This document shows, piece after piece, positions 5,941-64,000 of a stretch of 64,000 bases of DNA. Each line of letters opens with the position of its first letter. Position 1 is the stretch's first letter. Origin of the DNA: a virus. Location: positions 28,316 through 92,315 of the IMG/VR virus record IMGVR_UViG_3300028410_000010; one strand, written 5' to 3'. The notes below the pieces were generated by a model. That model was given only the letters and a program-made list of their open reading frames with translations. It did not search any database and was not told where the DNA came from. Made by a program: the position numbers and the translations under genes.

Positions 5941-5945
5941 CAATA

Positions 5946-6418: not shown

Positions 6419-6419
6419 C

Positions 6420-6686: not shown

Positions 6687-7050
6687 AAAAGTAGATAACG
6701 AAGTAATTAATGCACTAATGGAACTCGTCGACCAGTACGTTGCAAGAGATATTAGTAGAGACACACTAAGAGAAAGGTTGAGCAGCATCAAGATATACCC
6801 ATCTAATAAGTTTCACAATGAGCTGTTCCGAATCGTTCACGATATCAAGGAGCCTATCAACTCAAAGGAATTTAATCGTGCGTACTTTGCGGAGACACTA
6901 AAGAATGATGTACGTGAAAGAGTTAAGCCTTTAGCTGATAGAGTTAAGCCTTTAGCTGATAGGGTCGATGAAATATTTGAAGTTGATGTAGTTGTCGATA
7001 TTGTTTCACACCTTATCAAAAAAGACGCTGTAGATGCTGCTGTCCTTTAA
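6670..7050 (+). CDS. Hypothetical protein, about 126 aa, with an internal 7-residue tandem repeat
   Basis: Unrecognised, mostly helical and charged. Residues near 85-98 contain the same seven residues twice (VKPLADR VKPLADR), encoded by two perfect 21-bp copies at 6920-6961, which points to a recent in-frame duplication. The start may be ATG 6670 or GTG 6679; both overlap the end of the preceding gene. Confidence 0.6.
   Translation: MKTVSKKVDNEVINALMELVDQYVARDISRDTLRERLSSIKIYPSNKFHNELFRIVHDIKEPINSKEFNRAYFAETLKNDVRERVKPLADRVKPLADRVDEIFEVDVVVDIVSHLIKKDAVDAAVL
6920..6961 (+). repeat. Perfect 21-bp tandem duplication inside a coding gene
   Basis: Two adjacent identical 21-base copies keep the reading frame and add seven residues. 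They probably arose by replication slippage. Confidence 0.9.
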
Positions 7051-7300
7051 AGTGCTAAAAGCAGAAATAGGGATTCACATAATTGATCAAACAGCAGGAT
7101 TTATAGCCTTTAGTTTTCTCAATGTTAAAGTTCCCTTTTTTAAGTACAAGCAAAACATGACACTGCATCTGCTTGTAAAACGTAAGTACTGGACATTCGG
7201 CTATCACGAAGATTGGTACGATGGACCTATTCATTCAATTTCTCTAGGTCCGATTTTTACAATGAATACAATGGACTGCTTTGACGACGAGATGGAGTAG
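7034..7300 (+). CDS. Hypothetical protein, 88 aa
   Basis: Unrecognised. Beta-rich pattern with an acidic C-terminus (DCFDDEME). The start overlaps the previous gene by 17 bases, and the next gene begins two bases after its stop. Operon position is the main support. Confidence 0.55.
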   Translation: MLLSFKVLKAEIGIHIIDQTAGFIAFSFLNVKVPFFKYKQNMTLHLLVKRKYWTFGYHEDWYDGPIHSISLGPIFTMNTMDCFDDEME

Positions 7301-7302
7301 TA

Positions 7303-8133
7303 ATGCCAGAAGGCCCTGAAGTTGCGATCGTAGTAGATCAAATCTCACGATTTGTAGAAGGAAGATCAATCACGAAAGTGCAATACGCATCAGGAAGATA
7401 CTCAAGAGAAAAGAAGCCTTTTGGTGATGAAGATCTTAAGTCTTCTCTTCCAGCTATGATTGAAGCTGTTCGTGCCAAGGGTAAGTTTATTTACTTTCTC
7501 CTCGAAGATGCACCTTACATCTTTAATACGCTTGGGATGACAGGAAACTGGTCCATTGTAAAAGACGGAGAGGAGTTTCCAAAACATGGTCATGCTAGAT
7601 TCACACTTGACAATAATACAACGCTTGTGTTTTGTGATATGCGAAATTTCGGAACACTAAAGTATGTTTCAGAATCCAAAGCTCTTCAAAAGAAACTTGA
7701 CAGTCTTGGTTGGGATCCTTTGCGACAAAGCGTATTGCAAAGCAAAAAGTTCATTACAAAAGCTAAGTTGCGTCAAACAAAGAAGACAATTGCAGAAGTA
7801 CTAATGAATCAGAGTTATTTTGCAGGAGTAGGAAATTATATAAAGGCAGAAGTGCTGTATATGTCAAAGATATCACCTAATCGTCCTGTCTATGATGTAT
7901 CAGATAAGGAGTGGGAGCTTTTATGCAAAATCATATGTGATGTAATGTCATCAAGCTACAAATACCGTGGAACCACTATAAAGAACTACAGGAGCCCTAA
8001 CGGAAACGAAGGGTCTTTCCAATTTAAGCTAAAAGTTTACGGTAAGAAAGAAGACCCCGAAGGTAACAAGGTAATCAAAGAAACAACAAAAGATAAGCGA
8101 ACTACCCATTGGGTACCGTCAGTTCAAACTTAA
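7303..8133 (+). CDS. Fpg/Nei-family DNA glycosylase with a zincless finger
   Basis: 276 residues beginning MPEGPEV, so Pro2 (the catalytic nucleophile) and Glu3 are present. The helix-two-turn-helix segment is clear (AEVLMNQSYFAGVGNYIKAE, about residues 164-183). The C-terminal finger that normally holds four cysteines has the right sequence context (FKLKVYGKK... to KRTTHWVPSVQ) but no cysteines, as in the zincless members such as human NEIL1. The family excises oxidised bases and nicks the DNA. Substrate choice (FapyG/8-oxoG or oxidised pyrimidine) cannot be told. It may protect phage DNA or act on modified bases. Confidence 0.85.
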   Translation: MPEGPEVAIVVDQISRFVEGRSITKVQYASGRYSREKKPFGDEDLKSSLPAMIEAVRAKGKFIYFLLEDAPYIFNTLGMTGNWSIVKDGEEFPKHGHARFTLDNNTTLVFCDMRNFGTLKYVSESKALQKKLDSLGWDPLRQSVLQSKKFITKAKLRQTKKTIAEVLMNQSYFAGVGNYIKAEVLYMSKISPNRPVYDVSDKEWELLCKIICDVMSSSYKYRGTTIKNYRSPNGNEGSFQFKLKVYGKKEDPEGNKVIKETTKDKRTTHWVPSVQT

Positions 8134-8176
8134 ACAAATAAGACAGAAGAATTAAGATAGTCAAATAGGAGATAGT

Positions 8177-8419
8177 ATGAAGTATCATTTCGCAGACGAA
8201 CTAATTGGGCAACTTAGAGACACATTGCAACTCGCGATCTTGTCGGGAACAGACATCATTGATCATATTCGAATGATCGAAGTTGAACCGACAGAAGATG
8301 GTAAGCTTGCTCTTACTGCAGATTATAGGGAGCTTTTTGAAAAGCAAATTAACTCTATGATGCAAGAAGTCGAAGACCACCAGACAAAGATGCTATCAGA
8401 AGACAACGAGAGTGAATAA
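8177..8419 (+). CDS. Small acidic phage protein, 80 aa
   Basis: I recognise the general type from other large phages (FADELIGQLRDTLQLAILSGTD) but no function is known to me. It is helical and acidic. It is followed immediately by the MazG-like gene, whose ATG overlaps this stop (TAATG), so the two are probably translated together. The start has GGAG upstream at 8168-8171. Confidence 0.65.
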   Translation: MKYHFADELIGQLRDTLQLAILSGTDIIDHIRMIEVEPTEDGKLALTADYRELFEKQINSMMQEVEDHQTKMLSEDNESE

Positions 8420-8835
8420 TGGATCGCTTTGATGAAGATGCGCCAATGCCGGTGCCTCCTGTCCCTGACAGGTTTGAAGAGATGTTTAGACTTCGTGAAG
8501 AGTTTATGCATGCTTTAAGTAGGAATCGACCCGGAGCACAGTCTGAATGGCCTTTGGACTTAAGGTCAAAAGAGTCACAGAGGAACTTAAGAGACGTCTC
8601 TCTACGTGGCGTAGAAGAGGTCTTTGAAGCACTTAATCATCTAAAGAACTGGAAACCTCATCGCAAGACAGAAATGCCTGACTTTGATCGTGACAAGTTT
8701 CTAGAAGAATGGGTAGATGCTATGAATTACTTCTTCTCTGTGCTTATTCTTGCAGGATTCACACCTCATGAAATATATGAGTCCTATGTAGAAAAGGATC
8801 GAGTTATCCATGAGCGACTTAGAAGTGACTATTAA
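8419..8835 (+). CDS. MazG/dUTPase-type all-alpha NTP pyrophosphatase-like protein
   Basis: 138 residues. The metal-binding helix pairs of the all-alpha NTP-PPase superfamily can be seen: RGVEEVFEALNHLKNW and EEWVDAMNYFFSVLILAGF. Family members of dimeric dUTPase type hydrolyse dUTP or dCTP to the monophosphate, feeding ThyX and keeping uracil out of DNA. The exact substrate is not determined by the sequence. The next gene carries a related domain fused to a HAD phosphatase. Confidence 0.72.
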   Translation: MDRFDEDAPMPVPPVPDRFEEMFRLREEFMHALSRNRPGAQSEWPLDLRSKESQRNLRDVSLRGVEEVFEALNHLKNWKPHRKTEMPDFDRDKFLEEWVDAMNYFFSVLILAGFTPHEIYESYVEKDRVIHERLRSDY

Positions 8836-18968: not shown

Positions 18969-19189
18969 GTAATGTAGGTCGTGGTGACCTGGTAGAAATT
19001 CGTGTCTGGAAAGCAACGGGACATTTTGGTTCGCTCAAGAACAAAACAGTAGGCATCATAACTGATGCCCAAATTCCAGCACCTTATTCCGAAGGATTGT
19101 GCTACAAGATATACACACCACTTGGTTTACTATATCGTGATTCAGATTGTTTAGAAATAATTCAAAGGGACAAAACGACATGGGTTTGA
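18965..19189 (+). CDS. Small barrel-type protein, 74 aa
   Basis: Begins MSNVGRGDLVEIRVWKATG and has KTVGIITDAQ, matching the GDLV...GIV pattern of the two genes before it. The end overlaps the purA start by ten bases. Probably a tandem paralogue. Confidence 0.6.
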   Translation: MSNVGRGDLVEIRVWKATGHFGSLKNKTVGIITDAQIPAPYSEGLCYKIYTPLGLLYRDSDCLEIIQRDKTTWV

Positions 19190-20253
19190 TCGTTGACATC
19201 GTTACAGGTTTAGCTTGGGGCGATGAAGGAAAAGGAAAGATAGCAGCAGGACTAGCATCAACAGGTGACTATGACATGGTCGCGAGATGGAGCGGAGGTT
19301 CAAATGCAGGGCACACAATTCATGTGCCCGGAAAAGATGGAGAAGAAAAGGTATACAAAACACATATTGTCCCTTGCGGTGTACTCTTCGGCATCAAGAG
19401 TGTGATTGGTCCTGGTTGTGTTGTTAATGTTGAGAAACTGATGCGAGAGATCTCCCTATTAGAGAAGGCAGGACATAACGGTTCACTTGTCAAAGTATCT
19501 CCTCGTGCTCATATCGTTACGAATGATCACATTAGAGAAGATTCTGGAGAGTTCAAGGAAAGATTGGGTACTACAGGTAACGGTATTGCACCAGCGTATA
19601 GGGACAAATATGGACGAACAGGAAAACTTGCAAAAGACTACCTCCCTGCACACATGATTTGGGATGAAGTACTCGGAAAGAAGGTGTTATGTGAAGGAGC
19701 ACAAGGATGTTGGCTTGATGTAGACTACGGAAACTATCCATATGTTACATCTTCAAATACAACACCCGCTGGTGCACTATCTTTAGGCTTCTCACACTAT
19801 TCAATACGTGATGTCTACGGTGTTGCTAAGATGTATGACACAAGAGTCGGAATCGATCCTAGTTTCGATCCAGAGCCGGAGAATCACGCTCGTTTTAAAA
19901 AAGATCTCGCCGTAGCAGGTAAAGAGATTGGCGTAACAACTGGAAGGGCACGAGATACAAACTTTCTCAATGTTGACAAACTTATCAAAGCAATCAATAT
20001 TACTGGATCAAACAAAATCTACATCAATAAGCTTGACGTATTTTCGACAGCAGTAAAATTGAGCTATTTAAACGCCACTATGGGGCACAAAGAAGAGTGG
20101 CCATTCTTTTATAACGGTGTGTTGCGCCGATATGATTCAGAAGAAGCCATGTTACAGTCAATCACAAGTGCTATTCGAAAAAATGCAGCGTTCCCTATTG
20201 ATCACATAGAGTTTCTAGACAGTCCGTCATGGACACAACGAGGTACTTTTTAA
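19180..20253 (+). CDS. purA: Adenylosuccinate synthetase family protein (PurA-like, short form)
   Basis: 357 residues from ATG 19180 (AAAGGGA upstream), shorter than the bacterial enzyme at about 430. Signature blocks: GLAWGDEGKGKIAAGL (P-loop with the catalytic Asp of PurA), GGSNAGHTIH, GTTGNGIAPAYRDKYGRTG, EGAQGCWLDVDYGNYPYVTS, VTTGRARDTNF and the guanine-binding INKLD. PurA joins IMP and aspartate using GTP. The related phage enzyme PurZ, which makes the 2-aminoadenine precursor from dGMP, has as I recall lost that Asp, so this protein looks like PurA. TTGRARD differs from the usual TTGRxRR. It is paired with an IMPDH/GMPR gene starting one base after its stop. Confidence 0.85.
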   Translation: MGLIVDIVTGLAWGDEGKGKIAAGLASTGDYDMVARWSGGSNAGHTIHVPGKDGEEKVYKTHIVPCGVLFGIKSVIGPGCVVNVEKLMREISLLEKAGHNGSLVKVSPRAHIVTNDHIREDSGEFKERLGTTGNGIAPAYRDKYGRTGKLAKDYLPAHMIWDEVLGKKVLCEGAQGCWLDVDYGNYPYVTSSNTTPAGALSLGFSHYSIRDVYGVAKMYDTRVGIDPSFDPEPENHARFKKDLAVAGKEIGVTTGRARDTNFLNVDKLIKAINITGSNKIYINKLDVFSTAVKLSYLNATMGHKEEWPFFYNGVLRRYDSEEAMLQSITSAIRKNAAFPIDHIEFLDSPSWTQRGTF

Positions 20254-44465: not shown

Positions 44466-46266
<1,801 letters not shown>

Positions 46267-53731: not shown

Positions 53732-54666
53732 AAAAGTCACTAATTAGTTTGCTTTCTATACTAGTCCTAACAGCCTGTACAACACCTGATATTCAGATGA
53801 TTAGTATCGCTAATGGGCAGACCAACGGTGTTACTGTTGCAGATGATGCATCATCATTCAATGCGGGGATGTTCGATGCAGCATGTAGGGTTGATCTTAG
53901 CGGATTTGACTATATGTACGAACAAGATGTTATGTTAGGTACAGAGAAGGTGCTAGATGCACGAAATCTTGGTGTCCTGATTGGCGTAAAAGACGAGTTA
54001 ATTGTAACAGACCTAAACTTTAACGAAGTTGCAAGATTTGGCACAGATACAGATGAAAACCTTGTTACTGTTACAGATGCTCAAATGACACAATCAGGAG
54101 TCGTCGCACTTGTTGAAGATAGTGAACAGAGTGAGCCCCAAGTTGATTTTTATGATGAGGAAGGAGTAACTAAGGTTACACTGTTTGATCTATCTTGTAC
54201 GTCAAACTGCAGCCTTTCTCTTGAACAAGAACAAGAAGTTGTATACGTTGCTGACGGTCAATCTGTCGTCGCCGTAACAAAAGAAGGATACACGGAGATC
54301 GACAACACAGAAGCTTCACTAACTGTTAACTACGATCCTCGCACAAATTCCCTCATTACAACAAGCAACGACCGAGCAAACATTCAGAGTGTTGAGTTAG
54401 ACGGTTCTGCAAACTGGTCCATAGAGGATATTGGTCGAGTAGTTAGTATTGATCTTGCTGAATCTGCGGGAGTCGCTTTCTTAATGCATGAGATGAATAC
54501 ATTCTACAGAATCACTGCAATACGAACACTAGATGGAGAAATTATATTTTCAAGCCTCATTCCCGATGAAGCAGAAGTCGCTACTGACATTAATGCACGA
54601 ATGATTGTCTTATCAACAAAAGACAATGCAATCGCATATCGAGTAAACATTCAAGACTCGTTATAA
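53728..54666 (+). CDS. Lipoprotein with probable beta-propeller body, 312 aa
   Basis: TTG 53728 start. Signal peptide and lipobox: KKSLISLLSILVLTACTT, Cys17 would be lipidated. The body has repeated strand pairs (VLIGVKDELIVTDL; VYVADGQSVVAVT; SLITTSNDRANIQ; GVAFLMHEMNTFYRI) that look like propeller blades. Phage lipoproteins often block superinfection or injection at the periplasm. That role is inference. It is followed by a strong terminator. Confidence 0.72.
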   Translation: MKKSLISLLSILVLTACTTPDIQMISIANGQTNGVTVADDASSFNAGMFDAACRVDLSGFDYMYEQDVMLGTEKVLDARNLGVLIGVKDELIVTDLNFNEVARFGTDTDENLVTVTDAQMTQSGVVALVEDSEQSEPQVDFYDEEGVTKVTLFDLSCTSNCSLSLEQEQEVVYVADGQSVVAVTKEGYTEIDNTEASLTVNYDPRTNSLITTSNDRANIQSVELDGSANWSIEDIGRVVSIDLAESAGVAFLMHEMNTFYRITAIRTLDGEIIFSSLIPDEAEVATDINARMIVLSTKDNAIAYRVNIQDSL

Positions 54667-54688
54667 AACAGTACAGCAGAGTAACCTG

Positions 54689-54715
54689 AGAGGCACAATC
54701 CGTGCCTCTTTTTTT
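54689..54715 (+). terminator. Rho-independent terminator
   Basis: Stem AGAGGCAC/GTGCCTCT (54689-54696, 54702-54709), 5-base loop, then a run of T to 54715. A new promoter starts at the next base. Confidence 0.93.
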
Positions 54716-54752
54716 GTGCAAATTACTGTCCAACATGATAAAATAGTCATGT
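54716..54752 (+). promoter_or_regulatory. Promoter with inverted repeat around -10
   Basis: GTGCAAAT starts at 54716; 17 bp from GTGCAA to TAAAAT (54739-54744). ACATGA (54733-54738) pairs with TCATGT (54747-54752), leaving the -10 in the loop. The 120-base leader that follows (to 54873) can fold (TGTTAG/CTAACA) and has a tiny ORF at 54757. Confidence 0.62.
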
Positions 54753-54873
54753 AAGAAATGCTTCTGGCCAGCTTTTCCTATGTGACATGTTAGTAACAGC
54801 AGTTACGTATTTAAAAGCTAACAGATGGATTCTGAAGCAGCTGAAACATTATTGTGACGCATAGGACAGTAGC

Positions 54874-54975
54874 ATGGGCAACTACACTGGATTTTATCGA
54901 CGTGGGAATCTTAGTCCTAGACTTGTTGGAAAGTACTCAAAGAAATTGAAAAGTCTGCAGCAGATCGATGAGTGA
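54874..54975 (+). CDS. Very small basic protein, 33 aa
   Basis: AGGA precedes ATG 54874. MGNYTGFYRRGNLSPRLVGK, basic. Its stop lies inside the next start, so coupled translation is likely. Unrecognised. Confidence 0.5.
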   Translation: MGNYTGFYRRGNLSPRLVGKYSKKLKSLQQIDE

Positions 54976-55234
54976 TAAAATTTGGTCCCTGTATGTTGTT
55001 GAATGCGCTGATGGATCTTTGTATACTGGCATTTCTAACGACGTTGCAAAGCGTATTAAAACTCACAACAAAGGAAAAGGCGCGAAGTATACAAGATCGC
55101 GCAAGCCAGTAAAACTCCTAATCTCATGGAAGATTGGAAATAGATCAGAGGTAAGCAAGGCAGAGTACCAGTTTAAACAGAACACGCGCAGCAAGAAGTT
55201 AAAGCTAATCGCTAAGGGTAAATGGAAAGATTAA
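54968..55234 (+). CDS. GIY-YIG nuclease (YhbQ/UvrC-N type)
   Basis: 88 residues. WSLYVVECADGSLYTGIS is the GIY-YIG core (LYV...LYTG), followed by the catalytic Arg in VAKRIKTHNKGKGAKYT and Glu in SKAEYQFKQ. Small stand-alone members may repair or cleave DNA. No DNA-binding domain is attached, so it is not a typical homing enzyme. Confidence 0.85.
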   Translation: MSDKIWSLYVVECADGSLYTGISNDVAKRIKTHNKGKGAKYTRSRKPVKLLISWKIGNRSEVSKAEYQFKQNTRSKKLKLIAKGKWKD

Positions 55235-55283
55235 GTGTTTAACTGTTTCATCTAAAGCCTAGTTAATTAAGTAGAGGTAGACA

Positions 55284-55475
55284 ATGTCAGCATTAAGCTC
55301 TTTTAGACCCCGTGATCTTGTATGTAGATTTCAAAGTAGAGAATACCTTGGAATGGTCCTTGAGACTGATGGGAACACTGACGGCTATTCTTTTATTACT
55401 GTTCTCGGACCAGACGGGTTAAAGCACACGTTTTTTGAAACAGAGATTGTTATTTTAAGAAACGGAGATAAGTAA
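55284..55475 (+). CDS. Small barrel-type protein, 63 aa
   Basis: FRPRDLVCRFQSREYLGMVL with later strands (SFITVLGPDG) fits the small-barrel family. Overlaps the next start by one base. Confidence 0.58.
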   Translation: MSALSSFRPRDLVCRFQSREYLGMVLETDGNTDGYSFITVLGPDGLKHTFFETEIVILRNGDK

Positions 55476-55642
55476 TGGGCGACGTTGTTAATTTTGACAA
55501 ATCAGAAAGAAAAGAGGTCGACGAAGAAGATAAAGACATGACGATCAAGCGAAGTATTACGATTAAAGATTACTTCGCTTTTACACCTATCGTGGTCTTA
55601 TGGTTCTTTATCGTAATCGCAACGATCGCCATGTTCCAATAG
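55475..55642 (+). CDS. Small single-pass membrane protein, 55 aa
   Basis: An acidic N-terminal part followed by one hydrophobic segment (FTPIVVLWFFIVIATIAMF). ATG 55475 overlaps the preceding stop (TAATG). Unknown function. Confidence 0.62.
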   Translation: MGDVVNFDKSERKEVDEEDKDMTIKRSITIKDYFAFTPIVVLWFFIVIATIAMFQ

Positions 55643-55698
55643 TTTGACATGATGTGTGCAAATACCTGATGTGGTATTGTATAATAATCATGTCAAAC
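55642..55698 (+). promoter_or_regulatory. Promoter bracketed by a perfect 12-bp inverted repeat
   Basis: GTGCAAAT starts at 55656; 18 bp from GTGCAA to TATAAT (55680-55685). GTTTGACATGAT (55642-55653) and ATCATGTCAAAC (55687-55698) flank the whole promoter. The right arm ends where the AGGAGG ribosome site of TTG 55710 begins. A second small repeat AATACC/GGTATT lies in the spacer. Confidence 0.7.
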
Positions 55699-55709
55699 AG
55701 GAGGACACA

Positions 55710-56543
55710 TTGGAAAAGCTACCGCGACTCAAGAAAGATCAACTCAAGGTGATTTCAGAGTACGTGCGCAAGCAATCTGAGATCGATCCTGATAAAATCT
55801 TCGCATCTACAGCCTTTATGATGTCAATGACCAGGCGCCTCAGTATCAACAAGGGCCTGACCAAGAAGCAGAAAGCTTGGGCAATTTCTCTGATTAATGC
55901 ACAAGATATTATTGACACCAGGCTTCTGAAGGGGCTCAATACGATCAGGGCTTCTGGCCTTGTTTCTGATCTGGAACACACTATTCACTATTTAGAGAGT
56001 ACGATTGTCAGCAACGGAAAGCTTACAGAAAAAAGCCTTCCAGCATACCAACGTCTGCTACGTGAATACAAGAAGGCTTTGACTGGTGAGAGATGGTGCC
56101 TGTCGAAAGAGCAGAAAGATCTATGCTACGCTTTAAAAACTCACTGGCTCGACAACATTTCCTACTACACACACAAGGGATCTTTTGCGTTTCTAGATTC
56201 TCTATTTACGAATCTAGAAAACAAAGATTATCTCACAGAGAATCAGTACAACGCACTTGCCAAGCGTTTTTGGAAGCAGATTTTAATGCTCGATGCGATC
56301 AAAGCTCTCAAAGGATCACTGGTCCGAATCAAACCGTTCGTTAGCGAAAAAGAGTGTGCCTTAGTACTCGGGCATGTTGTAGTAGATGCCAATTGCGAAA
56401 ACATGATCGATCTCTGCGGGCGTTTTAGTAAAGGGTTCGCTCTCAAAATTCTCTTAGATGGCAAAGTTTGTTACTTCTACCCAAAACTCCATGATCGCAA
56501 AAGCTTTAAGCTTGAGGACTTTAATATCGAAGTAGTCTCTTGA
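55710..56543 (+). CDS. Unknown protein, 277 aa
   Basis: TTG 55710 chosen because AGGAGG lies just upstream and downstream of the promoter; earlier codons would not be transcribed from it. Helical and basic first half (RLKKDQLKVISEYVRKQ, GLTKKQKAWAISLINAQD), mixed second half. No family recognised. It has its own promoter and seems a single-gene unit. Confidence 0.68.
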   Translation: MEKLPRLKKDQLKVISEYVRKQSEIDPDKIFASTAFMMSMTRRLSINKGLTKKQKAWAISLINAQDIIDTRLLKGLNTIRASGLVSDLEHTIHYLESTIVSNGKLTEKSLPAYQRLLREYKKALTGERWCLSKEQKDLCYALKTHWLDNISYYTHKGSFAFLDSLFTNLENKDYLTENQYNALAKRFWKQILMLDAIKALKGSLVRIKPFVSEKECALVLGHVVVDANCENMIDLCGRFSKGFALKILLDGKVCYFYPKLHDRKSFKLEDFNIEVVS

Positions 56544-56545
56544 GT

Positions 56546-56585
56546 TTGTACATTGAACTCACAAGTAGTAAGATTTAAAGTTCAA
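56546..56585 (+). promoter_or_regulatory. Promoter with inverted repeat reaching the ribosome site
   Basis: TTGTAC (56546-56551), 17 bp, TAAGAT (56569-56574). TTGAACT (56553-56559) pairs with AGTTCAA (56579-56585), overlapping the AAGGAG site of ATG 56595. Confidence 0.5.
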
Positions 56586-56594
56586 GGAGAAAAT

Positions 56595-57134
56595 ATGCCA
56601 GATTCAACTTTCTTAGAGATTCACAAGGGCTCAAAAGGTCGCACACTCATTCGAGAAATTCGATGGCATCCGACAGAAGATGACTTCGTTGCCTTCTTGA
56701 AGTCATTGGGTTTTCCCGATGTAAAAGATTATCTTCCATACAATGTGCACGTATACGAGGTGTTTCAAGGAAAACCAATTAAGAAACTCAGCGAGAAAGT
56801 ACTACGTGAACGTTTCTTCTCAGAATCGACAAAGAAAGAGGCAAAAGAAGATACGACATCGTCAGCAGGCCCTCACCTTACTTACGGAGAGCTTTTAGAT
56901 ATTCCTGACAATGCCAAGGTTTGGGTGAAGTATGTTGACAATGAGCACGGAACAATCATGAACAGTGTCTATAAGATTAGACGCTCATCTTCGCAAAAGG
57001 ATGTTTGGTACCTTGAAAAGAAAGGCAAGGAGAGGGAAACTTTTGTTCAAGACACTAAGTCAAGAGAGTCATTTCACTTTTGCACAGATTTGTCTTTAGG
57101 GCTTGGTGTCCTGCAGCTATTCAAGGTGGTATAA
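56595..57134 (+). CDS. Unknown protein, 179 aa
   Basis: ATG 56595 after AAGGAG. FLEIHKGSKGRTLIREIRWH, a helical middle, then LGVLQLFKVV at the end. A linker near residue 90 suggests two domains. Unrecognised. Confidence 0.62.
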   Translation: MPDSTFLEIHKGSKGRTLIREIRWHPTEDDFVAFLKSLGFPDVKDYLPYNVHVYEVFQGKPIKKLSEKVLRERFFSESTKKEAKEDTTSSAGPHLTYGELLDIPDNAKVWVKYVDNEHGTIMNSVYKIRRSSSQKDVWYLEKKGKERETFVQDTKSRESFHFCTDLSLGLGVLQLFKVV

Positions 57135-57138
57135 CAGT

Positions 57139-57423
57139 ATGCAAAGATGCCACGTAGAGGCACGCTCACTAGTGCCAGGCGATCTAATCTATCTCCCACC
57201 TGGTTCATTTAGAGTTACAATAGACACAGATACATCTCATCTTACGACAAGGATAGAAGAGTCTACAAAAATTCCTGTACTTGTTGTCAAGTCTTTCTTC
57301 GACAATAAAAATGAAGTTACCCTGATTAAAGTGGTCATTAACGATAACTCTGTGTTTATCAATATTGGAAAAAAGAAGGTTGAGCTGATTCGAAGTGTGC
57401 AAATTGATTCTGCCTTAGGATAG
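57139..57423 (+). CDS. Small barrel-type protein, 94 aa
   Basis: EARSLVPGDLIYLPPGSFRV then VPVLVVKSFF-like strands. It has the PGD(L)...V start of small barrels. The promoter of the next gene lies in its last codons. Confidence 0.58.
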   Translation: MQRCHVEARSLVPGDLIYLPPGSFRVTIDTDTSHLTTRIEESTKIPVLVVKSFFDNKNEVTLIKVVINDNSVFINIGKKKVELIRSVQIDSALG

Positions 57424-57426
57424 AAT
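57397..57426 (+). promoter_or_regulatory. Promoter within the end of the preceding gene
   Basis: GTGCAAAT starts at 57397; 18 bp from GTGCAA to TAGAAT (57421-57426), then AGAGG and ATG 57472. Confidence 0.6.
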
Positions 57427-57471
57427 ATAACAGTTGAAGGAAAGAACATAACATCATATCAGAGGTAACTG

Positions 57472-58212
57472 ATGGATTTGAACGTTGCAAGCGAAATTGA
57501 TTTCGGAACCGATATTTCTGAGCTCGAGGTTCCAGCCGCACTTAAGAGTCGTATCGCGACCAGCGTAGAATACATTGATGTCGCGCTCGGTGGCTTGGGA
57601 ATGACTCCGTCAGTCGTGACGCTCTTTACTGGAACCCCTGGCGCCGGTAAGTCAACCATGATGTTGACACTTGCAGCAAATCTTGAGGCATCTGGCTGCG
57701 CGGTCATCTACAATGGAGTTGAAGAGTCAGCATACCAGACCAAGATGACCGTCGAGCGTCTAAAGCTAGATGCTAAGTTTGGTATGGGCCAAGAGAAGGA
57801 TGTTAGGACGCTCATTGCAAAGTTCGATCGATACCGCAAGTGCTCTGCAAATAAGTACCGTCACCCAGTAATCATCATTGACAGCCTTCAGGGCTTGCAA
57901 GACAGTCGCTGGAACTCAGGCAGAATTACGTCAAAGACCTCTGAGCATGCTCTCAAGGCGCTTACCGAGTATGCCAAGGAAACTTATGCCAACGTGTTCG
58001 TCATCGGCCAGGTCAATAAAGATGGCAAGATGAACGGCAGTAACAAGCTTCGACACATGTGCGATGCTCACGTCGAGCTCTCGGTCATTGATAACCAAAA
58101 GTCTGAGTATCATGGCTGTCGTCGTCTGTTCACTTCAAAGAACCGCTTCGGTGGTGCAGGGTTTGACCAGCACCTTGAGTTGCAAGCCGACGGCTTCAAC
58201 ATCGTACCGTAA
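57472..58212 (+). CDS. RadA/DnaB-like RecA-fold ATPase
   Basis: 246 residues. Walker A FTGTPGAGKSTMM (about 51-63), Walker B VIIIDSLQGL, VFVIGQVNKDG, and SKNRFGGAGF with the RadA KNRFG motif. The zinc finger and Lon-like domain of bacterial RadA are absent. RadA promotes branch migration in recombination. It may serve phage recombination or loading. Bases here are visibly richer in G and C than in most of the window. Confidence 0.82.
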   Translation: MDLNVASEIDFGTDISELEVPAALKSRIATSVEYIDVALGGLGMTPSVVTLFTGTPGAGKSTMMLTLAANLEASGCAVIYNGVEESAYQTKMTVERLKLDAKFGMGQEKDVRTLIAKFDRYRKCSANKYRHPVIIIDSLQGLQDSRWNSGRITSKTSEHALKALTEYAKETYANVFVIGQVNKDGKMNGSNKLRHMCDAHVELSVIDNQKSEYHGCRRLFTSKNRFGGAGFDQHLELQADGFNIVP

Positions 58213-58223
58213 ACAGGATCAAT

Positions 58224-58454
58224 ATGTCAAATCAGATTCAGTATGGCTTCTTCTCTGCTAAACATGCAAGGAATGGAGCCGACGTAGAAGTTTATTCAAA
58301 CCCACATTCGACAAAAGGGAATGTTTATGTCACGCATGTGTCTTTAGATCCGCTAGGTCGAGATTACCCGTTTGAAGATAAGATCTTTGAAGGTCCTGTT
58401 GATCATCTGATCAGAAAAGTCACAGTAAGCACTAATTCTCTTCAGTCATTTTAA
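58224..58454 (+). CDS. Small protein, 76 aa
   Basis: AGGATC precedes ATG 58224. Beta-like (GNVYVTHVSLDPLGRDYPFE). Unrecognised. Confidence 0.58.
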   Translation: MSNQIQYGFFSAKHARNGADVEVYSNPHSTKGNVYVTHVSLDPLGRDYPFEDKIFEGPVDHLIRKVTVSTNSLQSF

Positions 58455-58467
58455 AAGCGTTCCATTT

Positions 58468-58496
58468 GTGCAAATTTTTGCTGCAGATGGTAAAAT
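58468..58496 (+). promoter_or_regulatory. Promoter of the moxR-like gene
   Basis: GTGCAAAT starts at 58468; 17 bp from GTGCAA to TAAAAT (58491-58496). Confidence 0.62.
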
Positions 58497-58538
58497 ATAC
58501 AAGTTAGGAACAAACTAACCCGCCTCTGGAGGCAACTT

Positions 58539-59630
58539 ATGTCCGGTTCGACCCATCCTACTATCAATGCGAAGGACCTTGTCAATCTTCTTCGTGTTAT
58601 GCCCACCAACCGAGCAATCTTGCTCATCGGTCCACACGGTATCGGTAAGTCGCAGATTGCCCGCCAAATCGATAGCTCGATTCCCTTCATTGACCGCCGT
58701 CTCGCTCAGATGACGGAAGGTGACATGATCGGAATCCCCCGCATCAGTGACGACGTTACTCAGTTCCTTCCTGTGGATTGGTTTAAGCAGGGTTGTGACA
58801 ATGCATGTAACATGCTCCTTGACGAGCTCAACCGAGCGACTCCTGAGATCATGAACGCTGCATTCCAGATCGTGCTCGACCGTGAGATGAACGGAAACAA
58901 GCTCCACCCCGGCACTCGTGTGATTGCCTGCGTCAACGCAGGTTCTAACTACTCTGTCAACGAAATGGATCTTGCGTTGCTCAACCGCTTCGCTATTTTC
59001 CACTTCGACCCCACTGCTGAGGACTGGCTTGATTGGGCAGCGAGTGCAGATATTGACCCTGTCATTATCGAGTTCATTCGAACCAACCGCAAGCACCTTC
59101 GAAACAAGGATATTGACAGCATCCAGGCCATGTCAGCACATCCGACTCCTCGTTCGTGGGGCTTTGTCAACAATGATCTAAAGTACGCCGGGATGGCGCC
59201 AATTGACTGTGCAGGCCAAGACGAACTTCCTGCTGGTTTCTACCAGCTTTGCACCTCTTTGGTTGGAGTTGAAGCTGCCTCCGCTTTCGTTCACTTCGTC
59301 CAGAAGTTCGAGCGCAACGTGTCTGCTGAGGATATTCTCGACAACTACGATGCTCGCATCAAGGACATTGAGGCACTCTCTCACGACGCAGTGGTTTCTG
59401 TCATCGACAAGCTTGGTGAGCACCTCCTTGCCAACACTTGGACCGAAGATCAGTTCGCCAACCTTGAGCGCTTCTCTAAGATGATGTCAGGTGAGGATTA
59501 CTTGACTGTCTTCAAGCACGTTGCGGCATCGAGCAACATGGATAACATCCAGAACTTCCACAAGACTTCTTTCACCAAGAAGATCATGGACGTTGTTGAC
59601 AAGGCAGACGCACTTAAGAACCAGTCGTAA
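58539..59630 (+). CDS. MoxR-type AAA+ ATPase
   Basis: 363 residues. Walker A LLIGPHGIGKSQIARQ (about 29-44), Walker B NMLLDELNRATPEI (about 90-103), sensor 1 RVIACVNAGSNY, arginine-finger region ALLNRFAIF. MoxR ATPases work with VWA proteins as chaperone-like activators; the next gene is such a protein. GC content and codon choice (many C- and G-ending codons) differ from most of the window, suggesting high expression or different origin. Confidence 0.85.
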   Translation: MSGSTHPTINAKDLVNLLRVMPTNRAILLIGPHGIGKSQIARQIDSSIPFIDRRLAQMTEGDMIGIPRISDDVTQFLPVDWFKQGCDNACNMLLDELNRATPEIMNAAFQIVLDREMNGNKLHPGTRVIACVNAGSNYSVNEMDLALLNRFAIFHFDPTAEDWLDWAASADIDPVIIEFIRTNRKHLRNKDIDSIQAMSAHPTPRSWGFVNNDLKYAGMAPIDCAGQDELPAGFYQLCTSLVGVEAASAFVHFVQKFERNVSAEDILDNYDARIKDIEALSHDAVVSVIDKLGEHLLANTWTEDQFANLERFSKMMSGEDYLTVFKHVAASSNMDNIQNFHKTSFTKKIMDVVDKADALKNQS

Positions 59631-59645
59631 CCTCTTAAGAAAACA

Positions 59646-59680
59646 ATGTGCCGATGGGGTGTGCAATTCCATCGGCACAT
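59646..59680 (+). promoter_or_regulatory. 12-bp inverted repeat with a -35 box in its loop
   Basis: ATGTGCCGATGG (59646-59657) pairs with CCATCGGCACAT (59669-59680); the loop contains GTGCAA. In RNA it would form a strong hairpin after the moxR-like gene, though without a U-run. It may be a processing or partial termination site. Confidence 0.6.
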
Positions 59681-59690
59681 ATGTTATAAT
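59661..59690 (+). promoter_or_regulatory. Promoter of the VWA gene
   Basis: GTGCAATT starts at 59661; 18 bp from GTGCAA to TATAAT (59685-59690), then GAGGAG and ATG 59716. Confidence 0.65.
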
Positions 59691-59715
59691 AGTTAAGTAA
59701 AGAGAGGAGATACAA

Positions 59716-61119
59716 ATGGCTCAACCCAAAAAGATTAACACTGGCGAAGATGGTACTGGGCGGTTCAAGGGGATCAGCAAGAAGCTCACCGATGAGCAGC
59801 GTGCTATCAATGACGAGATTGACCTCGGACCACACCTCATTCAGCTCTACTGGAACGAACCGTTTTTCTCGACGTTCTATCGTGCAATGAACAGGCACAA
59901 GACACGTGAGATCGGAACCGCCGGCGTCGGAATCCAGGCCACGCGCCCAGCACTCTTCTGGAACCCAGACTTCATTGCGTCACTTTCTCATAAGAAGGTA
60001 ATGGGATTGCTCAAGCACGAAGTCTATCACTTGAACTACGATCACGTAACGTTCCGTGCACTTGAGCCACACATGATTTGGAACTGGGCAGCTGATCTCT
60101 CAATCAACTGCAGTATCCCTCGCGATGAGCTTCCTGATGGTGGTTTTATTCCCGGTGAGAAGCTGAAGGTGCCTGAACCTGAAGATTGGGCTGAAATGTC
60201 TGACGAGGAGAAGGCACGCTTTACGAAGATCAGCACACTTGTCGAGTCGTTTGACCCGTTCTTGACTGCTGAAGAATACTTCTTTGCGTTCATGGAAAAC
60301 GATGAAGTTAAGGACATGATCAAGGAAGCCGAGGAAAGGCAGCAGAAGCTTGAAGAGATGCTGGGTGAAGCACTACAGCGTGCTCTTTCTGGCGGAGATG
60401 ATCACGGAAATTGGGGTCAAGACTGCGACGAGAACGGTAATTCTAAGGGTGAGATCTCCGACGGAGTTCGACAGATGCTTGAAGGAGAATTGTCCAACAT
60501 CTTGCGAGACGCAGTCAACAAGGCAGACGGATCAAACGCCTGGGGATCAGTTCCACAGCATATGAGAAGTCAGCTCCGTTCTATGGTCTCAACTGAAGTG
60601 GATTGGCGTGTAATTCTTCGCCAATTCTTCGGCCGCTCCCGTCGCTCTAGCGGAAAGAGTACGAGAAAGCGTGTTAACAGAAAGCTTCCTCATGTCTTCC
60701 CAGGTCGTACACGTAACTACACTGCAAACATTGCGATCTACGTCGACCAGTCTGGGTCAGTGTCGAATGAAGCTTTAGCACTGTTTTATGCAGAATTGCG
60801 TAACTTTGGCAAGAAGACTACGTTCCACTTCTTTCCATTCGACACCGAAGTGGATGTTGAGAACGGTTTTGTGTGGAAGAAGGGTCAGACGATGCCTAAT
60901 CTTGAGCGATTCCGAGCTGGCGGTACAGACTTCCAGGCATGTGTGAACCACGCCCACGATAACAAGGGCCTCTTTGATGGTTACTTGATTCTGTCTGATG
61001 GAGAATGCAGCAAGCCTACTCCATCACGAATTCGTCGAGGCTACATCATCGCACCGGGTAGGAAGCTGTATTTCACGCCCGATCCATCAGACATTGTAAT
61101 TCAAATGAAGGGAGAATAA
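59716..61119 (+). CDS. Metallopeptidase-like and VWA-domain protein (DUF2201 type)
   Basis: 467 residues. The N-terminal half has a zinc-type HEVYH at residues 101-105 (LLKHEVYHLNYDH). A long acidic helical middle follows, then a basic stretch (RRSSGKSTRKRVNRK). The C-terminal VWA-like domain has the metal site YVDQSGSVSNE (about 343-353) and RAGGTDFQACVNHA. Such proteins pair with MoxR ATPases. Here they could assemble or remodel a host or phage metal-dependent complex, or act as a regulated protease. The pairing is seen; the role is unknown. Confidence 0.82.
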   Translation: MAQPKKINTGEDGTGRFKGISKKLTDEQRAINDEIDLGPHLIQLYWNEPFFSTFYRAMNRHKTREIGTAGVGIQATRPALFWNPDFIASLSHKKVMGLLKHEVYHLNYDHVTFRALEPHMIWNWAADLSINCSIPRDELPDGGFIPGEKLKVPEPEDWAEMSDEEKARFTKISTLVESFDPFLTAEEYFFAFMENDEVKDMIKEAEERQQKLEEMLGEALQRALSGGDDHGNWGQDCDENGNSKGEISDGVRQMLEGELSNILRDAVNKADGSNAWGSVPQHMRSQLRSMVSTEVDWRVILRQFFGRSRRSSGKSTRKRVNRKLPHVFPGRTRNYTANIAIYVDQSGSVSNEALALFYAELRNFGKKTTFHFFPFDTEVDVENGFVWKKGQTMPNLERFRAGGTDFQACVNHAHDNKGLFDGYLILSDGECSKPTPSRIRRGYIIAPGRKLYFTPDPSDIVIQMKGE

Positions 61120-61120
61120 A

Positions 61121-61654
61121 ATGAGAATCAAAGCAGGAACTGTATACAAAGGTAAATCAAAGAGCTGGGGATCACACACATATCGTTATGTTGTCGAAAA
61201 CGATGGAAAGCATGTTACATATGTTCCTCTGACGGGTGTGAATGCACATAAGGTTCAGCCTTCGCCGAGCTTCTGTCTAATAAAGTCATTCATGCTTTGG
61301 GCATCACAAGAGATCAATGGTTCATGGAGAAACATTGTGCTTGAGAATTGGCATCGCCAAAATAAGACTAGCCACCGTTCAGGTGAAGAGGAGGATGAGC
61401 ACTTGGTTGAACACTTGGAAACAACCAGCGGAAAACTGTCTGTAGTTGTTAAGAATACTTGTCCGATCTTTGTCTTCGGAAAGGATCTAAAGCCTGGCGA
61501 TATCGTTCGAAACAACAGCGGCAATTACCTTGTGGTTTCCGTCGGTACACAAAACTGTGGGTTGCTAGGCATGATCAATCTTGAAACATTTTGTCAAGAA
61601 CAGCCATCAGAGCCGTTCATTAGGTTGACGGGCTCGCTTAAGGTGGGAGTCTAA
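61121..61654 (+). CDS. Unknown protein, 177 aa
   Basis: Begins one base after the VWA stop. MRIKAGTVYKGKSKSWGSH, and near the C-terminus KPGDIVRNNSGNYLVVSVG, which resembles the small-barrel family; it may be two barrels with a helical insert. Unknown function. Confidence 0.62.
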   Translation: MRIKAGTVYKGKSKSWGSHTYRYVVENDGKHVTYVPLTGVNAHKVQPSPSFCLIKSFMLWASQEINGSWRNIVLENWHRQNKTSHRSGEEEDEHLVEHLETTSGKLSVVVKNTCPIFVFGKDLKPGDIVRNNSGNYLVVSVGTQNCGLLGMINLETFCQEQPSEPFIRLTGSLKVGV

Positions 61655-62215
61655 ATGGCAGTACTGAACATTGTAATCTGGCCTGCAAAGGTGCTTGATG
61701 AACCTGCAAAAGCAATTACAGAGATTACACACATGCACCATCAGCTTGCATCTGATCTTGTCGACACATGTGAACAAGTTGGAGGACTTGGTCTCGCAGC
61801 ACCGCAGGTTGGCGTAGGTCTTTCAATGTTTGTTCTCAATACGAAAGCAATTGATCCGTCACTTGATGGGTATGAAACTTTCATTAACCCAAAAGCTGTC
61901 AAAACAGGAGGAGAACAGACAAAGCAAGAGGAAGGTTGCCTAAGTTTTCCTGGCGTGCGGGCTAAGATTAAGCGCCACAAAACTTTCGGGATTGAATACA
62001 CTACACTTAACGGAACGACAGAGACATTAAGTGGCGACGGTCTTCTTGCGCAGGCACTTCAGCACGAGCTCGATCACCTGCTTGGCAAGCCCTTCATTGA
62101 GCACATGTCGTCCATCAAGCGTAGAAGTGCCAAGCAGAAGATGAAGATCTTGAAGCGTCGTATGATTGCAGAAGGTGTGACATACCATGATGTCATCGGC
62201 TCTCGAGACGAATAG
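61655..62215 (+). CDS. def: Peptide deformylase
   Basis: 186 residues. All three motifs are present: GLGLAAPQVG, EEGCLSFPG (Cys95) and QHELDHLLG (His137, Glu138, His141). It removes the formyl group from new proteins. Phage deformylases are known from marine phages and supplement the host enzyme during heavy translation. The C-terminus adds about 25 basic residues. Confidence 0.93.
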   Translation: MAVLNIVIWPAKVLDEPAKAITEITHMHHQLASDLVDTCEQVGGLGLAAPQVGVGLSMFVLNTKAIDPSLDGYETFINPKAVKTGGEQTKQEEGCLSFPGVRAKIKRHKTFGIEYTTLNGTTETLSGDGLLAQALQHELDHLLGKPFIEHMSSIKRRSAKQKMKILKRRMIAEGVTYHDVIGSRDE

Positions 62216-62228
62216 TCAAAAGCTATGT

Positions 62229-62258
62229 GTGCAAATTGTATGTAGTTTTTGATACAAT
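62229..62258 (+). promoter_or_regulatory. Promoter with 7-bp inverted repeat ending on -10
   Basis: GTGCAAAT starts at 62229; 18 bp from GTGCAA to TACAAT (62253-62258). ATTGTAT (62235-62241) pairs with ATACAAT (62252-62258). Confidence 0.65.
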
Positions 62259-62284
62259 AGAGATGTAAGAACGAAAGGAGCAAT

Positions 62285-63199
62285 ATGAGAATCATTTCTA
62301 AGTTTAAAGACTACTACGACGGAGCACAATCATTTGGCACTGATGATGATCTTACATACGTGAGGCACACAGAAACACACGAATTTGCATATCGTCCAGA
62401 AGATGACAATAGATACAAGGAGTTTGCTCTTCTTGAAAAGTTCATGACAAATATGCCTAAGCCTGAGCCCTTTAGAAAACACACTTTTAGCGTCACTCGC
62501 CACCTCGTTGCATTTTGCGGTAAACTCTATCCATTCGTTGAAATTGACGGAAGTTTCTTTTCACATCCGCAGGAGTATTTTGACGCTGTAGCAGACAAAT
62601 CAATCCTCAAGAACATACCTTCGTATGTTTACAAAGACAAGGCTTTAAAGAGCCACATTGAGACAGTTAACTACTACATGAACAACAATAGCTCTAGTGT
62701 TTCTATCTCAAAGTTCATGGGAAAGTTTCGATACAATGCTAAAGCGTGGGACGCGTTTGTTTCTGGTCTTCCAGATAAATTACCCATCGAATTGTTTCTA
62801 AAAGCATCCTCACCTATCATCGTGTTAACGTGTCCTGACTACGTAGGTGGTAAGAGGCTTGGAGCCGTTAAGACTGAGGATGTAGTCGAATGTGAATTTA
62901 ACAAGATTCAGCCTCCGACGAGGTATTCGAGAAATCCGAGAGTTACAATCAATCCACGCCTTGACGACATTGAGTTTGCCAGAGTGGTGGATCCATTCAC
63001 CGCATATCAAGAAATTGACATGTTCTTGTCAAATCAAATGGTAGATAGAGATACTGCTACGAACACAGGCAGCGATAAGATTATTCGGGACTCAAAGGGT
63101 TTCGATGATAAGTCATTCAAGAACACAGCGCCTAGCACAAAGAAAGCACGACGTCGAGCAAACAAGAAACTCAAGGCAAAGTTGAGAACTAAGGACTGA
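62285..63199 (+). CDS. Conserved large-phage protein of unknown function, 304 aa
   Basis: Starts MRIISKFKDYYDGAQSFGTD, a sequence type I have met in many jumbo-phage genomes (memory). It contains VAFCGKLYPFVEIDG, FLSNQMVDRD, DSKGFDDKSFKN and a very basic tail. No catalytic motif is evident. Confidence 0.72.
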   Translation: MRIISKFKDYYDGAQSFGTDDDLTYVRHTETHEFAYRPEDDNRYKEFALLEKFMTNMPKPEPFRKHTFSVTRHLVAFCGKLYPFVEIDGSFFSHPQEYFDAVADKSILKNIPSYVYKDKALKSHIETVNYYMNNNSSSVSISKFMGKFRYNAKAWDAFVSGLPDKLPIELFLKASSPIIVLTCPDYVGGKRLGAVKTEDVVECEFNKIQPPTRYSRNPRVTINPRLDDIEFARVVDPFTAYQEIDMFLSNQMVDRDTATNTGSDKIIRDSKGFDDKSFKNTAPSTKKARRRANKKLKAKLRTKD

Positions 63200-63211
63200 G
63201 CATAACGATGA

Positions 63212-63241
63212 ATGCAAAAGTTGACTCAAAAGTGATAGAAT
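63212..63241 (+). promoter_or_regulatory. Promoter
   Basis: ATGCAAAA starts at 63212; 18 bp from ATGCAA to TAGAAT (63236-63241). Confidence 0.55.
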
Positions 63242-63267
63242 AAACATACAGCAACGGAGAAGTATTC

Positions 63268-63894
63268 ATGAATCTATTCTATCTTGACCACGATGTTAAG
63301 ACTTGTGCAAGTTATCACTGCGACAAACATGCAGTAAAAATGATTGTAGAGCTGGCGCAGATGCTGTCGACTGCACAGTGGATTAATGAGGCTGAAGTAT
63401 ATGGTCTTATGCCGTGGGACGGCAAGTGGGCTGACCTTTGGCGCGAAATCTCAGCAACCCACCTTCGAATTGCAGGGCACGACGAAAATCTAGCATACGA
63501 AATGAATCTAAGAGAAGTTCGCAAGCTATGTGCTACGTTGCTGCCCGACTCTATGTACACTAAAGTATACGCACCAACACACATCAATCATCCAACTGCT
63601 GTATGGGTTCGCTCAAGCAAAGCAAACTACGAGTATACATGCAAGCTTGGAATTGCGCTAGCTGAAGAGTACACTTATCGTTATCACCGACGTCACAAAA
63701 CACAAGATGTTCTCGAGCATCTATCTGCTAACGTGCCATGCACATTTTCACAAACTCCGTTTGTTCAACCACCACTAGCTATGCCAGACGATGTCAAGTG
63801 TGCTGATGCTATTGACGCGTACCGAACATACTACAAAAAGTACAAACGCGCCATCGCTGTTTGGCGCCACACTCCTGCACCGCACTGGTTCTAA
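63268..63894 (+). CDS. Conserved phage protein of unknown function, 208 aa
   Basis: MNLFYLDHDVKTCASYHCDK, HAVKMIVELAQMLSTAQW, INHPTAVWVRSSKANYEY and EEYTYRYHRRHKT. The run of conserved His/Asp/Cys residues near the N-terminus looks catalytic or metal-binding. I have seen the family in large phages but know no activity. CGGAG precedes ATG 63268. Confidence 0.7.
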   Translation: MNLFYLDHDVKTCASYHCDKHAVKMIVELAQMLSTAQWINEAEVYGLMPWDGKWADLWREISATHLRIAGHDENLAYEMNLREVRKLCATLLPDSMYTKVYAPTHINHPTAVWVRSSKANYEYTCKLGIALAEEYTYRYHRRHKTQDVLEHLSANVPCTFSQTPFVQPPLAMPDDVKCADAIDAYRTYYKKYKRAIAVWRHTPAPHWF

Positions 63895-63911
63895 ATTACT
63901 TGATGCAATGT

Positions 63912-63941
63912 ATGTAAAATCGCATACTTATTGTGTATAAT
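63912..63941 (+). promoter_or_regulatory. Promoter
   Basis: ATGTAAAA starts at 63912; 18 bp from ATGTAA to TATAAT (63936-63941). Confidence 0.65.
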
Positions 63942-63950
63942 ATAAATGTA

Positions 63951-63970
63951 GAGAGGAGATCAATCCTCTC
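63951..63970 (+). promoter_or_regulatory. Hairpin hiding a ribosome site
   Basis: GAGAGGA (63951-63957) pairs with TCCTCTC (63964-63970) over a 6-base loop. The left arm is the ribosome site for a possible ATG at 63971. Both arms lie after the promoter at 63912, so the fold would form in every transcript. Confidence 0.45.
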
Positions 63971-64000
63971 ATGAAGGAGGTTCGATATACATTAGTTACT
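63971..64000 (+). CDS. Possible start of a further gene (cut by window edge)
   Basis: ATG 63971 opens MKEVRYTLVT and runs off the window. A second ribosome-like AAGGAGG lies just inside it, so the true start is uncertain. Confidence 0.3.
   Translation, partial: MKEVRYTLVT

Follow-up and report, generated by a model that had tools for sequence, protein, structure and literature searches.

What role could a MoxR ATPase and a metallopeptidase-VWA protein play together in a phage, and why are the genes of both so visibly richer in G and C than those around them? The question is raised by a stretch of 64,000 nucleotides (hereafter, the window) corresponding to bases 28316-92315 of the 92,315-base IMG/VR virus record IMGVR_UViG_3300028410_000010. 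The source is a tailed phage, since the record carries tail sheath and tail tube genes together with the phage replication genes for a single-strand binding protein, a UvsX-like protein, a DnaB-like helicase and a DNA polymerase. No estimate of completeness is attached to the 92-kb record, which may be a fragment, as such records often are. Open reading frames (ORFs) for the two proteins, here moxR and vwa, were confirmed on the plus strand at the coordinates proposed in the initial annotation (Table 1), with a gap of 85 bases between them (59631-59715). The reading developed below, which we hold to be about evenly balanced between right and wrong, is that the pair is an ATP-driven remodelling, probably proteolytic machine, abundant, made early or in the middle of infection, and directed at a host or an early phage client.

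The catalytic positions of MoxR (G34, G36, K37, D95, E96, N133 and R150) are invariant in all 47 aligned MoxR proteins; N133 is presumably sensor 1 and R150 presumably the arginine finger. When the predicted model (mean predicted local distance difference test score, pLDDT, 91.9) was compared with solved structures, rows 1-9 were all NorQ or CbbQ (Z 14.3 to 13.4; top match 9qh8, Z 14.3, root-mean-square deviation, rmsd, 4.3, 225 aligned), with ClpB next at Z 13.3, a lead of about the tie margin (1) or less. Some of the matching NorQ structures are complexes with the VWA domain of NorD. MoxR proteins form rings and work via VWA co-chaperones, whose metal site binds client peptides, and their AAA+ core carries a distinctive insert in its helix 2 (PMC7159879). 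The Pfam bpMoxR match is under its cut-off (18.2 bits against 27), and PADLOC gave weak matches only on the three proteins. A Pfam scan of ten ORFs at 55.6-63.9 kb named no third protein of the ternary MoxR-vWA conflict systems (VMAP, iSTAND, FtsH-like or beta-propeller).

The partner protein combines an N-terminal DUF2201_N domain (70.8 bits against a cut-off of 23.2) with a C-terminal, VWA-like DUF2201 domain (28.4 against 26.4). The sequence HEVYH lies at residues 101-105, and the earlier numbering of its glutamate as Glu102 is correct. Among homologues, the glutamate of the HExxH motif is conserved in 86 of 86 from phages and 72 of 73 from cells, and each of the HExxH and MIDAS residues in no fewer than 71 of the 72-73 cellular sequences that could be read. 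Hence the proposal of a MoxR-VWA pair whose VWA partner bears a zinc-protease motif is supported by conservation of the catalytic and metal-binding residues among relatives, and the partner is a probable zinc protease on its sequence. Because the scan pattern itself fixed N123, A125, D127 and N131, fair evidence on D127 and N131 comes only from the alignment of 11 VWA proteins built from tblastn matches, N4 and S-TIM54. In the predicted model (mean pLDDT 83.2) the VWA domain, residues 335-467, matches VWF A2 (Z 11.7, rmsd 2.7, 131 aligned). No confident solved relative was found for the N-terminal domain in fold tables that mainly cover the VWA domain, the N-terminal domain not having been folded alone. 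Its profile matches are weak (MJ1213, a small archaeal protein, 0.0046; M48 proteases at least 0.17), and with the N-terminal part as sole query MJ1213 reached only 0.89; Pfam Peptidase_M48 is also matched by 13 of 59 family members at E ≤0.01.

For the VWA protein and homologues such as N4 gp25 and AR9 gp029, the family phrog_1314 bears the name "HNH endonuclease," which recurs in many public records. DUF2201_N and DUF2201 were matched in 11 of 11 and 59 of 59 scanned members with no HNH family among the matches. Judged by these domains, the label is a systematic wrong name, and it conceals the VWA partner in many annotations.

The two genes travel together. In 50,697 phage records, tblastn found relatives of the VWA protein in 56 and of MoxR in 751, none above 60% identity. 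Scans of viral contigs with each window protein as a single sequence found no relatives, but the alignment-based scan did. From this profile scan the best 80 of at least 444 relatives (at least 600 candidates) were taken, and from the cellular scan the best 80 of at least 215. Together with 10 named phages, the 80 scanned contigs make up 90 phage loci, among which ORF calling left 4 without a VWA ORF and 4 without a MoxR ORF and found both on one stretch in 83; of the listed proteins from the scan, two alignments, A3 and A4, include 58 of 67 and 46 of 66, respectively, to keep their size down. Across the 86 loci with a VWA gene, moxR lies on the same strand of the same stretch in 83: directly upstream (≤300 bases) in 67, 23 of these overlapping, further upstream in 14, and in reverse order in 2; the other 3 have no moxR. 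At 73 cellular loci with a VWA gene, moxR is directly upstream in 33, upstream but apart in 15, downstream in 6, and absent from the stretch in 19. Neighbours were clustered in search of a third conserved partner; the most widespread family after the pair reached only 30 of 90 loci, and has no function in PHROGs. Co-evolution of MoxR and VWA, as judged by distance-matrix matching (r 0.94), was set aside: five neighbour families correlate with them at 0.78-0.97, so that the value shows shared descent only. At two loci moxR or the space behind it is interrupted: in Vibrio phage VCO139 an annotated HNH gene lies between two ATPase pieces of moxR (L007:4167-5911), and in PA5oct a putative homing endonuclease gene lies between moxR and vwa (L009:10407-11903).

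Such a pair is not new. With its MoxR and metallopeptidase-vWA genes side by side in a tailed phage, the locus is of the kind that Iyer et al. (2021) described for the group 2.2 jumbo phages, in which a MoxR AAA+ protein is paired with a vWA protein carrying an N-terminal metallopeptidase (PMC7824862). The same combination is found here, in a phage that may or may not belong to that group, its 92-kb record being possibly a fragment. In N4, gp24 and gp25 belong to the same two families, in the same order and on one strand, whereas the N4 pair shows no codon bias and its identity to the window proteins is 24% (MoxR) and 20% (VWA). The pair was already known from N4-like phages (PMC2784036; PMC4193335): 25 N4-like phages share a core of 14 genes that includes homologues of gp24 and gp25, both of them among its five members without an assigned role (PMC4193335). 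It is thus present in the N4-like core and also in giant phages. Bacillus phage AR9/PBS1 carries it as gp028/gp029, and 0305phi8-36 has a MoxR-type two-subunit pair (PMC2147016). In Acidianus two-tailed virus, ORF892 and its MoxR partner form another viral MoxR-VWA pair (a weak structural match of the VWA protein, 1.4e-4), but ORF892 has no peptidase domain (PMC7824862). In a functional-genomics paper on phages, a search by six terms turned up neither N4-like phages nor this pair (PMC11879866). While the pair is already known from large phages, its codon signature is a general and testable addition; in the accessible literature on phage MoxR and codon usage, no earlier report of that signature was found.

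In this phage, three 1-kb bins at 58-61 kb have a GC content of 0.48-0.50 and the other bins 0.37-0.45. By G+C at third codon positions (GC3), moxR ranks first, the RadA-like gene upstream second and vwa third of 60 plus-strand ORFs of at least 150 aa (mean 0.384, standard deviation, sd, 0.064; the set counts the helicase gene twice, whole and in the form truncated at the beginning of the window), so that the earlier remark on the G and C richness of these three genes is borne out by the profile over the 92-kb record. Adjusted for amino acids, the z scores are 9.5 for moxR, 7.2 for vwa and 6.6 for the RadA-like gene, against an sd of 1.7 for the z of the other ORFs (44 window ORFs, overlapping frames retained). 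The shift is gene-specific and not regional, because a 76-aa ORF at 58224-58454, between the RadA-like gene and moxR, has a GC3 of 0.33. In moxR every lysine is encoded by AAG, and AGA and ATA are both absent. With ARAGORN, the record yielded no tRNA gene; as far as the record shows, the preferred codons should therefore suit host tRNAs.

The bias recurs in relatives. GC3 exceeds the median of the neighbours in 75 (moxR) and 64 (vwa) of the 82 loci with enough comparator ORFs, and against neighbour ORFs of at least 250 aa moxR is higher in 42 of 48 and vwa in 38 of 48. After related moxR genes were collapsed into groups, 21/23, 14/16 or 10/10 groups, depending on the threshold, stood above their neighbours. 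As a control, a random neighbour of 250-500 aa was above the median in a mean of 33.5 of 72 loci, with a maximum of 43 over 200 draws. The share of C in two-fold pyrimidine boxes is elevated for moxR at 74 of 82 loci; in four-fold boxes, the moxR value exceeds that of the neighbours at 9 of the 82 for A, at 60 for T, at 58 for G and at 38 for C.

The initial annotation had left strong expression and acquisition side by side as causes of this composition. If the genes had come recently from a GC-richer donor, their codons would say nothing about expression. That three genes stand out together in the record is in keeping with such an origin, as are the rise of C in four-fold boxes of this phage (background 0.15, moxR 0.30, vwa 0.21, RadA-like gene 0.35), a slight rise of four-fold C by group at the finest grouping (15/23, p 0.021), and the distinct pattern of the RadA-like gene, which uses GGC rather than GGT. 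Over the whole set, however, translational selection accounts better for the pattern, because a GC-rich donor would raise four-fold C, and this is up in fewer than half of the loci and no longer up at coarser grouping (8/16 and 6/10). In this phage four-fold G barely moves in moxR (0.10 to 0.12), and the low-GC3 ORF next to moxR also argues against a transferred block. The closest relatives among the matches listed are viral contigs at 39% identity or less, the best contig of the cellular collection reaching 33%. The recurrence of this bias among phages that are not related favours expression over acquisition. The codon pattern thus favours selection for translation rather than recent acquisition of moxR and vwa, less clear-cut in this phage alone, and acquisition seems to us improbable.

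Genome-wide ranks give the bias a scale. They were obtained from 20-kb pieces, ORFs cut at piece ends being missing, and cover 400 of 440 kb of SCTP-2, 360 of 367 of Kaldavass, 340 of 349 of Vibrio 2.275 and 380 of 385 of G001. By GC3, moxR ranks 4/258 in PA5oct, 5/365 in SCTP-2, 2/392 in G001 and 4/333 in Vibrio 2.275, within the top 2% in these four of seven phages, and 14/160 in the Moorella phage. The ranks of vwa are 12 in PA5oct, 7 in SCTP-2, 14 in G001, 92 in Vibrio 2.275, 20 in the Moorella phage, 130 in AR9 and 254 in Kaldavass. The major capsid gene (Pfam Gp23), located in five of six records searched (weakly in AR9, 6.4e-8), has a GC3 below that of moxR in four of the five, AR9 being the exception; in PA5oct the coordinate limits were loose enough to give two ORFs the capsid label, and only the first overlaps the Gp23 match. 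Among the top 14 genes of PA5oct by GC3, 10 of the 12 others lie inside the 39-kb terminal repeat, which presumably has an early role. In the 380 kb of G001 examined, the sole ORF of at least 100 aa above moxR is an AAA ATPase (phrog_2376); it lies about 4 kb from moxR at 344.2-345.3 kb (L188:4204-5301). Codon use of this kind suggests that the pair is made in large amounts.

From these observations a mechanism may be sketched in which the two genes would specify one protein-remodelling machine. The conserved pairing, intact MIDAS and NorQ/CbbQ-like fold point to a MoxR ring acting with a VWA co-chaperone: MoxR would assemble into a ring of the NorQ/CbbQ type, and the VWA domain would grip the client through its metal site and transmit the ATP-driven motion of the ring to it. 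The conserved HExxH glutamate suggests an added step, in which the HExxH domain would cut or clip the client. A host or early phage complex, not only late particle building, is the likelier target because of the codon signature and the early or middle timing in relatives. In AR9 an early promoter is annotated before gp028; 33 of the 34 predicted early promoters of this phage were seen by differential RNA sequencing, the exception being the one before g057 (PMC5312081), and the gp028 promoter is presumably among the 33. In N4, gp24 and gp25 are middle transcripts (PMC4193335).

Several points weigh against this reading. Codon bias is a proxy for expression and not a measurement of it, and the rise of four-fold C in 23 groups, with that in this phage, weakens its interpretation as translational selection. 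The bias is weak in AR9 (moxR 45/226, in a genome of very low GC3, mean 0.164), and absent from Kaldavass (188/379), the N4 pair and the vwa gene of S-TIM54, so that neither of the phages for which there is evidence on timing, AR9 and N4, has a strong codon bias. Nor is it specific to phages, a weaker shift being found in cellular pairs (moxR 26/38, median +0.036). By sequence profile against solved structures, midasin (1.4e-47, 4 stretches) comes ahead of CbbQ/NirQ/NorQ 5c3c (2.1e-11) and ClpB1 (3.4e-10). The ring, the interaction of the two phage proteins, their ATPase and protease activity, the amount and timing of their synthesis in this phage, and the client are things that we infer. Finally, there are hints of a link with the virion: the pair adjoins tail genes in Kaldavass, the moxR record of PA5oct carries a note of electrospray ionization tandem mass spectrometry (ESI-MS/MS), and one peptide of the MoxR-like protein of DC4 came from purified virions (PMC10638138).

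The last three points are also support for a role in virion assembly or maturation, in which the pair would be a chaperone-protease that builds the particle and clips structural proteins. Iyer et al. (2021) proposed this for the group 2.2 jumbo phages, on the strength of a MoxR-vWA pair for tail assembly in an archaeal virus (PMC7824862). It gains from S-TIM54, where the pair lies amid virion structural genes, and from RPP1, where a mid-phase structural module is near the gp24/25 homologues (PMC4193335), and an assembly chaperone can still be made early. Against it, the codon bias and the early (AR9, by annotation) or middle (N4) timing point away from an exclusively late role, and in most phages compared the capsid gene itself carries less of the bias than moxR. 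The partner protein is not among the 15 virion proteins of DC4 named in the available parts of PMC10638138, and in this record the pair is about 80 kb from the tail sheath genes. Virion assembly is a serious possibility, to which we would give perhaps a third of our belief.

The bacterial pairs NorQ-NorD and CbbQ-CbbO activate enzymes. Their ATPases, of the CGN subfamily of MoxR, head the fold table of the phage protein and likewise have a VWA partner, and the phage pair might act in the same style, inserting a metal or freeing an inhibited enzyme, for example a metalloenzyme of the phage or the host, with the HExxH domain structural or metal-binding only. The S-CREM1 MoxR has been placed in the CGN subfamily (PMC9964418), a dCTP deaminase gene directly follows gp25 in N4, and a ribonucleotide reductase large subunit is encoded in the present record. 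In contrast to the bacterial pairs, the VWA partner of the phage pair is fused to an HExxH domain, whose nearly invariant glutamate would be unnecessary at a purely structural site, and, each gene of the pair being in 86 loci, no neighbour family is near-universal; enzyme maturation is therefore unlikely.

Table 1. Features of the moxR-vwa locus, in window coordinates.
Feature	Position	Strand	Details
RadA-like ATPase, RecA core only, 246 aa	57472..58212	+	TIGR00416, phrog_26214 6e-21; GC3 0.57
Extended -10-like promoter site, 43 nt before moxR	58488..58496	+	Close TGNTANAAT match; motif only
MoxR AAA+ ATPase, 363 aa	58539..59630	+	Pfam AAA_5 1.7e-11; phrog_1297 1.6e-59; GC3 0.62
MoxR Walker A, residues 31-38	58629..58652	+	G34, G36, K37 invariant, 47 sequences
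MoxR Walker B Asp95-Glu96	58821..58826	+	Invariant, 47 sequences
MoxR sensor-1 Asn133 (presumed)	58935..58937	+	Invariant, 47 sequences
MoxR candidate arginine finger Arg150	58986..58988	+	Invariant, 47 sequences; precedes core strand 152-156 of the model
Strong hairpin between moxR and vwa	59642..59685	+	Fold of 59631-59715
Extended -10-like promoter site, 26 nt before vwa	59682..59690	+	Perfect TGNTATAAT; motif only
Metallopeptidase-VWA fusion, 467 aa	59716..61119	+	DUF2201_N 1.8e-19, DUF2201 2e-6, phrog_1314 2.8e-48; GC3 0.54
HExxH zinc motif, residues 101-105	60016..60030	+	H101, E102, H105 kept in 86/86 phage homologues
Asp127, candidate third zinc ligand	60094..60096	+	Invariant in 11-protein alignment
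MIDAS DxSxS (VWA metal site), residues 344-348	60745..60759	+	D344, S346, S348 in 86/86
MIDAS Thr404	60925..60927	+	84/84 readable, 2 gaps
MIDAS Asp428	60997..60999	+	83/83 readable, 3 gaps

Separate promoters had been proposed for the two genes. This is plausible here, with a motif site before each of them and a hairpin in between, while the genes in relatives are mostly contiguous and often overlap. The fold of the gap has an energy of -31.6 kcal/mol (z -6.2, 0/200 shuffles as low), the hairpin ranks second of 30 intergenic gaps in energy per base, and it could be a terminator or an mRNA-stability element, either role being unproved. On both strands of the window, the motif TGNTANAAT occurs in 22 copies against 11.7 expected, a number reached in 0/100 shuffles, and 6 of the 16 plus-strand copies are located 15-120 nt before an ORF (p 0.017). 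Copies precede, among others, the DNA polymerase gene, moxR, vwa, and the ORFs at 62285 and 63268. The motif may represent a promoter class of the phage's own. A standard sigma-70 scan of 54500-64000 found no excess (14 sites against 15.1 expected), nor did a terminator scan of the same region; the T4-type late promoter TATAAATA occurs once in the window against 2.1 expected, which is uninformative. The Shine-Dalgarno sequences of moxR and vwa are strong, ranking 4 and 6 of 82 by energy, in keeping with abundant synthesis.

The RadA-like gene had been grouped with the pair. It shares the composition, and it is not a conserved neighbour, having no match in the 90 relative loci, so that it was rejected as a component of the system. 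Its TIGR00416 RadA match (8.3e-26, profile 73-264 of 454) is under the cut-off of that family. Shortly 3′ of the pair lies a peptide deformylase gene (61655-62215, Pfam 3.6e-41), found near 2 of 90 relative pairs only. Elsewhere in the window, a GroEL gene (44656-46266, a full-length match above cut-off) has, unlike moxR, an ordinary GC3 of 0.36. A relative of adenylosuccinate synthetase at 19147-20253, matching the PurA and phage PurZ models below both cut-offs, possibly belongs to a modified-purine pathway. Two different tail sheath genes, each of about 1000 aa, stand in tandem in the same record (L002:2337-5399 and 5436-8426; phrog_23).

The preferred reading of an abundant remodelling machine also has a bolder form, which we offer tentatively and consider rather doubtful: that a widespread, high-abundance machine of early or middle infection works on a complex of the host, or on an early phage complex for replication or transcription, remodelling and cutting it, and does not serve particle assembly. 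If true, podoviruses and giant phages would have in common an AAA+ protease of host takeover. In four of the five phages compared, the codon signature is more marked than the one in the major capsid gene, suggesting that the pair is worth much of the cell's translation; the same signature narrows the search for the client and eases a direct test in a laboratory phage.

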